Shown in pieces: positions 15,325 through 17,697 of a stretch of DNA of 28,900 nt. Position numbers and translations under genes: made by a program. Source of the DNA: a virus; IMG/VR virus record IMGVR_UViG_3300025168_000455, positions 1-28,900 of that record; one strand, written 5' to 3'. Within the stretch, counting starts at the first letter, position 1, and each line of letters begins with the position of its first letter. The notes under the pieces were generated by a model. It was not told the DNA's origin. It made no database searches and saw nothing but the letters and a program-made list of their open reading frames with translations.

Positions 15325-16082
15325 GCGGACATTTTTACGATTGCACAAGCGAGCCATACTTAACTGCCGCGAAAACACCTGTGCAGGCAAGAAAGCTAAA
15401 AGCTTACCCGTCTGTCACTACTATCTTGTCTATTCAGATGGAAGATTTTATGCACAACACCTGGATACCCAGAAAATTGGTAGAATTAGCGAGAGATTAC
15501 CCCACTGCGAGCGTGCAGCAGATTCAAGACATGAAGTACGGGTACAGAATATGCCCAGAAACGAACGAGAAGGTATCTTCAAGCCATTTTGGAACAATGG
15601 TCCATGCTAGGCTAGAGGATATAATAAATAATCTCATTACGGGCGAAGGGTTGGCCGAGGCTGTGACTGATTACGACGCGTGGGCTGAACCTTTTATTGA
15701 TTTTATTTTAAGGGAAGGAATAGAACCTAGGGCTTGCGAGAGAATATTGTATTGCGACAAGATGAAAAGCGCAGGGTCAGTCGATTTTATAGCTAAGGTT
15801 GACGGCAAATATCATTTGTATGATTACAAGTGCAGAGATACAAAAGGAACAGGCGGCAAGTTTTACGAAAAGAAAGACTGCACGCAGTTGGCTATTGAAT
15901 CTAAGTGGCTGCAGCAAGACCTGGGCTTAGATTATACTCCTATGGCTACCAGTGTGTGCATTTGCACCGAAAGCAAGAAGCATTATCACAAGAACTGGAG
16001 CTTAACTCAGATGCGCAAAGGCGTTACGCGATTTAAGAACTTAAACAAACTCTACAGGATGGATTGGATGAACGCGAAATGA
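15321..16082 (+). CDS. PD-(D/E)XK exonuclease, Cas4/RecB-like
   Basis: 253 aa with the Cas4/RecB nuclease order: a His in GTMVHARLEDI (His95), GSVDFIAKVDGKYHLYDYK with Asp155 and the Asp168-x-Lys170 pair, and a distal Gln in CTQLAIES (Gln189). This is the metal-dependent core that degrades DNA ends. I do not see the four-Cys iron-sulfur cluster of true Cas4. It sits next to ERF, endonuclease VII and a second nuclease, so end-resection for recombination is the likely job. The start ATG has AAAGGCG 8 bases upstream and overlaps the previous TGA. Confidence 0.8.
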   Translation: MSGHFYDCTSEPYLTAAKTPVQARKLKAYPSVTTILSIQMEDFMHNTWIPRKLVELARDYPTASVQQIQDMKYGYRICPETNEKVSSSHFGTMVHARLEDIINNLITGEGLAEAVTDYDAWAEPFIDFILREGIEPRACERILYCDKMKSAGSVDFIAKVDGKYHLYDYKCRDTKGTGGKFYEKKDCTQLAIESKWLQQDLGLDYTPMATSVCICTESKKHYHKNWSLTQMRKGVTRFKNLNKLYRMDWMNAK

Positions 16083-16432
16083 AACACAATAACGATTTCC
16101 AGCATGACCTAGAAGTCGGACAGGTCAAAGAGAAGGAGCTTGCAGACTTACTTGAAAACAAAACGATTGAAGTCAAAAGAGATTTGATTGCTAAAGACAC
16201 GGGTAATGTTTTTATTGAATACGAATGCAGGGAGAAGCCTAGCGGCATTGCGACAACGAAAGCAGATTTTCATTGCATTGCAGTAGAACATTTATATATA
16301 ATTTTATCTACAGAAAAATTAAAAGATATTGTACGCCCATACTTTGGCACCGACAGGGATGTTTTAGGGGGCGACAGCAATCGCAGCAAAGGAATTAAAC
16401 TACCACTTAAACAATTAATAAAACTAAAATGA
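16079..16432 (+). CDS. Second PD-(D/E)XK-type nuclease-like protein (117 aa)
   Basis: The start is ATG 16079 (MKHNNDFQHDLEVGQVKEKE); a TTG at 16064 is the longer alternative. ADLLENKTIEVKRDLIAKDT followed by GNVFIEYECREKPSGIATTK is the pattern of small phage PD-(D/E)XK proteins, with ExK at about 34-36 in IEVKRD, a preceding acidic region and a conserved GNVFIEYE strand. The first Asp of the active site cannot be assigned with confidence. It overlaps the upstream nuclease stop as ATGA, so the pair is coupled, and the last bases overlap the methyltransferase ATG. Confidence 0.65.
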   Translation: MKHNNDFQHDLEVGQVKEKELADLLENKTIEVKRDLIAKDTGNVFIEYECREKPSGIATTKADFHCIAVEHLYIILSTEKLKDIVRPYFGTDRDVLGGDSNRSKGIKLPLKQLIKLK

Positions 16433-17697
16433 ATCATGATTATACTACCAAAACAATTAGTCACCTTAGCCTCTGTTCAGGTTATGAAGGAATCGGAAGA
16501 GGACTTAGAGCAGTGCTTCCAAATATCAGAGAAATCGCTTTTGTGGAGGTCGAAGCCTTCGCTGTTGCGAACTTGGCGAACAAGATGGAAGCGGGGTTCA
16601 TTTATCCAGCACCTATATACACGGACCTTAAAACCTTCCCGTACAGAAAATTTCGAGACAGAGTGGACATCCTTAGCGGAGGTTTTCCCTGCCAACCTTT
16701 CTCTCAAGCTGGAAGTAGAAAAGCAACTGAAGACCCAAGGCATTTATTTCCCTTTATCGCAGAAGGAATCAGAGAGTGCCAACCTAGAATTGTTTTCCTC
16801 GAAAACGTTGAAGGAATCCTTAGCTGCAAGACCCAGGACGGAGAACCAGTTCTCCAATATGTCCTCCGAACATTGGAAGAGTTGGGTTACAGAGCAACGG
16901 CAGGAATATTCTCAGCGGGTGAAGTCGGCGCACCTCACCAGAGAAAGCGAGTCTTCATCCTTGGGATGGCCAACGGCAAGGACGAGCGATGCCGAGGGCG
17001 GACGCATCGAGACGGAGATGACAAGCAGTGGCTTCAAGAGCAAGAGGCACAAGAGCAATCAGACCTTCGGAGCGAAGCTAAGGGACGCAGTGGAGACCCA
17101 CGAGGACAAGAACTGGGCGTCACCAGTCGCGATGAACGATGGGATGTATGTAGACAACAGTCCGAACGAGAACAAGAGGCACTCTCAAGGACTAGCAACT
17201 CAAGCAGTACGGAATTGGTCAACACCGAGAGCGAGTGCGACAGACAGCAGTCGTCCAAACAACAAAGGGGGGATACCCTTGAGCGACCAAGTGAAACGGA
17301 ATTGGGCAACTCCATCAACAATGGACAACCTACCAGCAAGGAGTCCCGAAAAGTTAGCGGAAGCCAAGAAGAAGGGTGGTTGCAAGAACCTCCGAGAGGA
17401 AGTAGTAAATCCGAAGAACTGGGGAACTCCGAAGGAACAAGACAGTCGAGCAGCATTGACGGACAGAGGCAAGCACAACTTGGGGGAACAAGTCCACGGG
17501 ATGCACAATGGCCAGCAAGACCCAACCAAGAACAATACAAATGGGAAGAACCCCGTGTCATTGAAGTTGAATCCAAATTGGGTGGAGCAACTGATGGGAC
17601 TTCCAACAGGGTGGACAGACTTCGACTTCTCGGAAATGGAGTAGTCCCACAAACTGCTGCTAAGGCATTTTATACATTAATCAATAGACTACCGTGA
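16429..17697 (+). CDS. dcm: DNA cytosine-5 methyltransferase (Dcm family)
   Basis: 422 aa with all key C5-methyltransferase motifs in one frame: I LSLCSGYEGIG (13-23), IV GGFPCQPFS with catalytic Cys88 (84-92), VI ENVEG (125-129), VIII QRKRVFIL (171-178) and X LGNGVVPQ (about 401-408). The stretch between VIII and X, where the target-recognition domain belongs (about 180-395), is low-complexity and rich in Gln, Glu, Arg and Ser. That is unlike a normal TRD and is explained by the overlapping frame 16436-17644. It could protect phage DNA or modify gene control. The start is the first ATG, 16429, overlapping the previous stop. Confidence 0.9.
   Translation: MNHDYTTKTISHLSLCSGYEGIGRGLRAVLPNIREIAFVEVEAFAVANLANKMEAGFIYPAPIYTDLKTFPYRKFRDRVDILSGGFPCQPFSQAGSRKATEDPRHLFPFIAEGIRECQPRIVFLENVEGILSCKTQDGEPVLQYVLRTLEELGYRATAGIFSAGEVGAPHQRKRVFILGMANGKDERCRGRTHRDGDDKQWLQEQEAQEQSDLRSEAKGRSGDPRGQELGVTSRDERWDVCRQQSEREQEALSRTSNSSSTELVNTESECDRQQSSKQQRGDTLERPSETELGNSINNGQPTSKESRKVSGSQEEGWLQEPPRGSSKSEELGNSEGTRQSSSIDGQRQAQLGGTSPRDAQWPARPNQEQYKWEEPRVIEVESKLGGATDGTSNRVDRLRLLGNGVVPQTAAKAFYTLINRLP
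16436..17644 (+). CDS. Nested frame inside methyltransferase: repeated W-x-TP protein, overlapping gene candidate
   Basis: A 402-codon open frame, one base shifted from the methyltransferase, begins 7 bases after its ATG and lies wholly inside it. It has five W-(x)TP/SP units: GWPTARTSD (178), NWASPVAMND (227), NWSTPRASATD (261), NWATPSTMDN (290) and NWGTPKEQDS (329). It ends in LNPNWVEQLMGLPTGWTD. That pattern is familiar from phage methyltransferase-associated sequences and stand-alone phage frames, so it does not look like a random shadow. Its first 130 codons run antiparallel in content to the methyltransferase catalytic core and may be less meaningful. No SD is seen. Function unknown. 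Confidence 0.5.
   Translation: MIILPKQLVTLASVQVMKESEEDLEQCFQISEKSLLWRSKPSLLRTWRTRWKRGSFIQHLYTRTLKPSRTENFETEWTSLAEVFPANLSLKLEVEKQLKTQGIYFPLSQKESESANLELFSSKTLKESLAARPRTENQFSNMSSEHWKSWVTEQRQEYSQRVKSAHLTRESESSSLGWPTARTSDAEGGRIETEMTSSGFKSKRHKSNQTFGAKLRDAVETHEDKNWASPVAMNDGMYVDNSPNENKRHSQGLATQAVRNWSTPRASATDSSRPNNKGGIPLSDQVKRNWATPSTMDNLPARSPEKLAEAKKKGGCKNLREEVVNPKNWGTPKEQDSRAALTDRGKHNLGEQVHGMHNGQQDPTKNNTNGKNPVSLKLNPNWVEQLMGLPTGWTDFDFSEME

Follow-up and report, generated by a model that had tools for sequence, protein, structure and literature searches.

The locus examined here raises the question of how two long open reading frames can share one 1.2-kb stretch of viral DNA, and whether both of them are genes. 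It lies in a window of 28,900 nucleotides, the whole stretch that was analysed, from the IMG/VR virus record IMGVR_UViG_3300025168_000455. Frame 0 (alpha; 16429-17697, plus strand) codes for a C5-cytosine DNA methyltransferase of 422 aa that carries motifs I-VIII and X, and the +1 frame (beta, or 'WTP'; 16436-17644, plus strand) codes for a protein of 402 aa with a W-x-TP cassette array and a motif-IX-like end. A sequence-only reading had described both frames, which we confirm at 422 aa and 402 codons, and had left the choice among a true overlapping gene pair, a target domain reached by frameshifting and a relic; it had also raised the loss of the target-recognition domain (TRD) to overprinting.

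The two frames begin at paired starts, ATGAATCATG (16429-16438, plus strand), with the frame-0 ATG at 16429 and the +1 ATG at 16436. The first ATG overlaps the TGA stop of an upstream gene of 122 aa (16064-16432, plus strand; phrog_13596, unknown function), to which it is coupled by a 4-nt ATGA overlap, and phage C75C1 has a short hypothetical gene at the equivalent upstream place. No promoter or terminator above shuffles was found in the region. Two antisense ORFs (190 and 150 aa; minus strand, 17034-17606 and 17200-17652) lie beneath the cassette region, where composition probably accounts for them. GC and AT skew change sign at about 11-12 kb and about 21 kb of the window, which matches a plus-strand replication block flanked by minus-strand blocks.

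The frame-0 product was identified as a C5-cytosine methyltransferase by Pfam PF00145 (E 4e-38) and PHROGs phrog_363 (E 9e-55), with NCBIfam in agreement. Its catalytic half (16462-16971, plus strand) holds motifs I-VIII, among them PCQ of motif IV (residues 87-89; 16687-16695), ENV of motif VI (residues 125-127; 16801-16809) and QRKRV of motif VIII (residues 171-175; 16939-16953), and motif X (RLRLLGNGVVP) is found in RVDRLRLLGNGVVP (17608-17649, plus strand), on bases common to the end of the +1 protein. Motifs I, IV (PCQ), VI (ENV), VIII (QRxR) and X are invariant or nearly so across 50 homologues. Within motif X, R394, L398, R399, G402 and N403 are invariant, and R364, P365, Q369, W372, E373, P375 and R376 are nearly so in the conserved segment that precedes it, WPARPNQEQYKWEEPRV (17509-17559, plus strand). 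AlphaFold gives a confident core (residues 10-181, pLDDT about 90) and motif-X helices (pLDDT about 95) separated by a disordered gap, and the AF2 core and motif X align with M.HhaI with a VIA Z of 20 over 195 residues (rmsd 2.9). Residues about 182-360 are rich in Gln, Glu, Arg and Ser and mostly have a pLDDT below 50. Thus residues and low pLDDT both bear out the earlier description of motifs I, IV, VI, VIII and X in frame 0 and of Gln/Glu/Arg/Ser-rich filler where the TRD is expected. The predicted frame-0 fold is one without a TRD, and neither TRD nor motif IX is found in the polypeptide that carries the catalytic motifs.

The C half of the +1 protein appears to be the target-recognition region, judging from its W-x-TP cassettes and motif-IX-like end. 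In the cassette array (16967-17530, plus strand), where frame 0 is low-complexity filler, three units are exact (WSTP 17216, WATP 17303 and WGTP 17420) and two are degenerate (WPTA 16967 and WASP 17114), so that the five W-x-TP units counted previously were a slightly generous number. The array is followed by LNPxWVEQLMGxPxGWT. The motif-IX-like segment, LNPNWVEQLMGLPTGWTD (17567-17620, plus strand), has L378 and V383 invariant and N379, P380, W382, E384, L386, M387 and G388 nearly so, and its profile matches the in-frame IX regions of actinophages, although the label 'IX-like' comes from position and an in-frame homologue, not from a structure. The motif X end of frame 0 overlaps the GLPTGWTDF end of the +1 frame just as had been described.

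Searching both translations, as had been proposed, gave the frame-0 families above and one clear match for the +1 protein, phrog_1008 ('DNA methyltransferase', E 3e-18). Positions 37-284 of phrog_1008 are matched by the +1 frame and positions 286-320, which correspond to motif X, by frame 0 of the same virus record; therefore, one family elsewhere spans what two frames divide here. The +1 protein was not recognised by Pfam or NCBIfam, and a solved-structure search with its profile returned no meaningful match and no solved TRD (best E 0.2). Modelled alone by AlphaFold, it gave a poor fold (pLDDT 51), too poor for structure comparison; this might be expected if a partner is needed, yet it is no evidence in itself.

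The cassettes lie between motifs VIII and IX, as in multispecific phage C5-methyltransferases. The 139 loci yielded 496 cassettes and 44 clusters of at least three, and the same cassette stands at ordinal positions 1-6 in different loci, which indicates that the cassettes are shuffled modules. Some cassettes, for example WATPNTMDxLPxxxxExLAxxKKKGGCKNLREEV and WGTPKEQDSRAxxxDRGKxNLGEQV, recur almost unchanged in genes that are divergent elsewhere (L052, L058 and L065, in the +1 C half), suggesting from sequence likeness that single cassettes recombine.

The same parts are found in other arrangements among related phages. The methyltransferase of mycobacteriophage IrishSherpFalk (L075) carries, in this order and in a single frame, motifs I-VIII, LPTP cassettes, LNPAFPEWMMGWPTGW and motif X; it matches phrog_363, and its residues 194-390 match phrog_1008 (E 1e-57). 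In comparison with the dual genes, the cassette-IX part of its C half matched +1 frames and its motif-X part matched frame 0, and 100 shuffled queries gave no match. By these matches, the +1 region is homologous to in-frame TRD-IX regions, and the TRD was apparently not lost to overprinting, but is found in +1, with the same cassettes present in the continuous protein of the mycobacteriophage. Within 1489-2661 of L075, the +1 frame has an open stretch of 177 codons over the catalytic half that resembles the N-terminal part of the +1 protein and a first LPTP unit; this stretch may be forced by composition or may be a trace of overlap.

Actinophages Kampy (78/77), Lilbooboo (32/33) and Familton (7/6) have two adjacent genes, both annotated as DNA methylase, in which gene one carries I-VIII and gene two, in the +1 frame, carries LPTP cassettes, IX and X; the genes overlap by 23, 32 and 209 nt, respectively. 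Arthrobacter phage 1191A (L072, 1558-2673) is mixed, with the IX-like segment and motif X in frame 0 and the LPTP cassettes in +1. In Paenibacillus phage Redbud, a +1 'g50 internal gene', REDBUD_51 (705 nt, 234 aa), is annotated inside the C5-methyltransferase gp50 and carries WxTP cassettes and LNPDWVECLMGFPIGWTD; this internal ORF, of 234 aa only, is annotated as hypothetical, with no second-subunit reading in the record. The two frames also overlap extensively in phages of Microcystis, Acidovorax, Synechococcus, Lacticaseibacillus and Bacteroides, as well as in bacterial genomes of the Acidovorax group. The relatives thus form a graded series of single frame, two genes with a short overlap, internal gene and full overlap. 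In the tree of the catalytic half, which is unrooted and so gives no order of the arrangements, one branch divides all full-overlap forms from those of the actinophages.

These homologies bear directly on the possibility that the overlap is real, but that the +1 protein is an unrelated overprinted phage protein, for example an anti-restriction or host-targeting one. For the N-terminal half of the +1 protein, neither a relative beyond the overlap nor one of solved structure is known, and the weak fold prediction for the +1 protein would also be in line with such an origin. However, the C half is homologous to the TRD-IX region of the single-frame methyltransferase and to that of the actinophage second subunits, and the two pieces missing from frame 0, a foldable TRD and motif IX, are the very ones that the +1 frame supplies, so that we consider an unrelated protein unlikely.

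The pair of frames is retained far beyond the window. The +1 protein of phage C75C1 is 42% identical to that of the window locus over the full length, and frame 0 is 46.5% identical. A first sample of IMG/VR loci was picked by the +1 protein, whose search gave 64 loci; of the loci compared, 66 of 66 had both frames open along most of the gene, with the +1 offset constant throughout. Since this sample had been chosen by the +1 frame, a second one, of 80 loci, was drawn with only the methyltransferase frame as query in an alignment-based search (a pattern-based search gave 2 loci). Its +1 frames had 0-2 stops per gene, compared with 5-53 in the +2 frame of full-length genes, and +1 cassettes or the IX motif were present in 74 of the 80, as against none in frame 0; these counts are over loci that share ancestry and are not phylogenetically independent. 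The six exceptions were mostly broken or short frame-0 ORFs. Judged by these open frames and shared motifs, related phages and prophages have kept the arrangement in well over a hundred genes.

Start codons follow the same pattern. A twin start, ATGTGG, is present in 103 of 139 loci, where translation of the +1 protein (Met-Trp) would begin at the ATG and that of frame 0 at the GTG, two bases downstream, and most of the remaining loci have two starts within about ten bases. The paired starts argue for independent initiation of the +1 product. In Acidovorax phage Alfacinha3 (L073, 1496-2662) the annotated 'cytosine-specific methyltransferase' is the +1 (MWLYxP) frame, as is an annotated hypothetical gene in Synechococcus phage Ssp-JY39 (L171, 1501-2616); in both, the actual catalytic frame, from a GTG two bases later, is unannotated.

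Stops are strongly avoided in the +1 frame. Across 136 loci 48 were observed, compared with about 785 expected from frame-0 amino acids and codons, and most of the observed ones are presumably the stop with which the +1 gene itself ends; the trimmed region was free of +1 stops in 98 of the 136 loci, against an expectation of about 6. Nor is the avoidance due to chance in the window locus, as synonymous permutation of its frame-0 codons gave a mean of 5.4 +1 stops and no stop in only 7 of 10,000 shuffles, and 25 stops interrupt its +2 frame along this stretch. The synonymous-site check on homologous loci that the sequence-only reading had called for pointed the same way: four-fold degenerate sites of the catalytic half had a divergence of 0.34, against 0.73 in neighbouring genes of the same loci, and were the lower of the two in 46 of 46 loci (Wilcoxon p 4e-9), a comparison also made by identity class. 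Individual codons are frozen even where the proteins are only about 41% identical (Pro62 CCT in 57/57, Gly153 GGT in 57/57, Ala163 GCG in 58/58 and Gly385 GGT in 56/56), in contrast to Pro87 of motif IV, which takes all four codons.

The position of the differences shows which frame dominates where. In the catalytic half they concentrate at the third codon position of frame 0, in the cassette array and the rest of the C half they concentrate at the third position of +1, and the final 38 codons are constrained in both frames. Amino acid similarity of the +1 frame in the catalytic half is slightly above the level forced by frame 0 (permutation mean z about 2.3, mostly stop avoidance), a weak excess, since much of the +1 sequence in this half is already dictated by frame 0. 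Therefore, the codon-pair permutation is not our main argument, and the case for the catalytic half is made by stop avoidance, frozen codons and four-fold sites. On these substitution patterns, both frames are under purifying selection.

Programmed ribosomal frameshifting would offer another route to one enzyme, with translation starting in frame 0 and shifting to +1 after motif VIII to give a single I-VIII-TRD-IX protein. The order of the motifs along the DNA fits this explanation, as frame 0 supplies I-VIII and is followed by the TRD and IX of the +1 frame. Actinophages include the single-frame version, and split actinophage genes meet at this same junction. Frameshifting, however, needs no open, start-bearing and synonymously constrained +1 frame over the catalytic half, and all three are seen, while a second shift back would be required for motif X, which is read in frame 0 from bases shared with the +1 protein end. 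A programmed frameshift is expected to leave the second frame without its own start or constraint upstream of the shift, which is not what the starts and the catalytic half display, and we regard it as quite improbable. That only one frame is functional, the other being a relic or by-product of composition, is scarcely credible, for although the same DNA is read as WxTP units in one frame and as [LMV]-x-N-[TS]-x-S repeats in the other, so that each reading is partly dictated by its counterpart, and +1 similarity in the catalytic half is mostly forced, this explanation is opposed by stop avoidance, four-fold constraint, frozen codons and a motif X kept in frame 0 downstream of the +1-dominated region, and a dominant frame that differs between the halves means that neither frame alone explains the data. 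Conservation, constraint at synonymous sites, the avoidance of stops and the paired starts thus speak strongly for a true overlapping pair.

We therefore return to the two frames as a gene pair and ask what they form. The locus probably encodes a split C5-methyltransferase whose catalytic and specificity polypeptides come from the same DNA in two frames, most like M.EcoHK31I; on the best reading of the sequences it would be a larger and modular version with a nearly complete overlap. The small gene of M.EcoHK31I is reportedly nested in the large gene in another frame. In M.EcoHK31I (YGGCCR), motifs I-VIII and X belong to the large polypeptide and motif IX to the small one (Lee, Kam and Shaw 1995, cited in PMC3404938). 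The window locus shows the same division, with I-VIII and X in one polypeptide and the IX-like segment in the other; the likeness drawn here is one of motif division. The large polypeptide of M.EcoHK31I also has the predicted TRD (PMC3404938), whereas the window locus has filler at this place and its cassettes in the +1 product. The window locus further differs in its overlap of nearly the whole gene and its twin starts.

Other known enzymes share some features with the locus. The actinophage pairs likewise have the catalytic half in one frame and cassettes and the IX-like region in +1, but they overlap by 23-209 nt and carry motif X in the second gene. The alpha and beta genes of M.AquI overlap slightly, unlike the near-complete overlap of the window locus. 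M.AquI is a C5-methyltransferase split in the variable region into two polypeptides (PMC3404938). Its motif X is in the small polypeptide, whereas in the window locus motif X is in the catalytic frame; IX and X together in the small polypeptide are found in the actinophage pairs. Methyltransferases of the SPR and phi3T type carry several exchangeable target-recognising cassettes between motifs VIII and IX, but in a single frame and a single chain, whereas the window locus uses two frames. These Bacillus phage enzymes are multispecific, solitary methyltransferases (Gunthert et al. 1986, cited in PMC4190342).

In the split enzyme that we propose, frame 0 would give the catalytic polypeptide, which holds motif X as well as the AdoMet-binding and catalytic motifs I-VIII. 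The +1 frame would give the specificity polypeptide, with an N-terminal part of unassigned role, exchangeable W-x-TP cassettes at the place of the TRD and the IX-like end. Translation would begin at two neighbouring starts, in relatives mostly ATGTGG, so that one upstream region serves both products. We infer that the two pair physically in trans as one C5-methyltransferase and that the cassettes choose the sequences to be methylated. The methylation would most likely shield the phage DNA against host restriction, as phage methyltransferases usually do (PMC4190342).

Both split C5 enzymes and the complementation of fragments are well documented (PMC3404938), and a split C5 enzyme with overlapping genes is already known. 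The near-complete overlap, the specificity cassettes in a second frame, the twin start and the breadth of the arrangement look new, and a literature search of open-licence papers found no description of this overlap. In double-stranded DNA genomes it is rare for two long genes to overlap almost completely, and those that do usually encode unrelated proteins; the two frames of this locus, by contrast, seem to specify parts of a single enzyme that complement each other. It follows that many database entries misread such loci, with one of the frames, sometimes the wrong one, picked and labelled the methyltransferase.

In a broader reading, to which we give about even chances, these loci would represent a widespread class of phage methyltransferases that keep a combinatorial specificity array in one frame of the DNA for the catalytic subunit. 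The cassettes could recombine freely because their antiphase reading need only stay open and hydrophilic, as a linker, and one gene would provide both halves of a multispecific enzyme with their expression coupled. The arrangement offers a testable model for how phages diversify their methylation targets, as well as a natural source of split methyltransferases.
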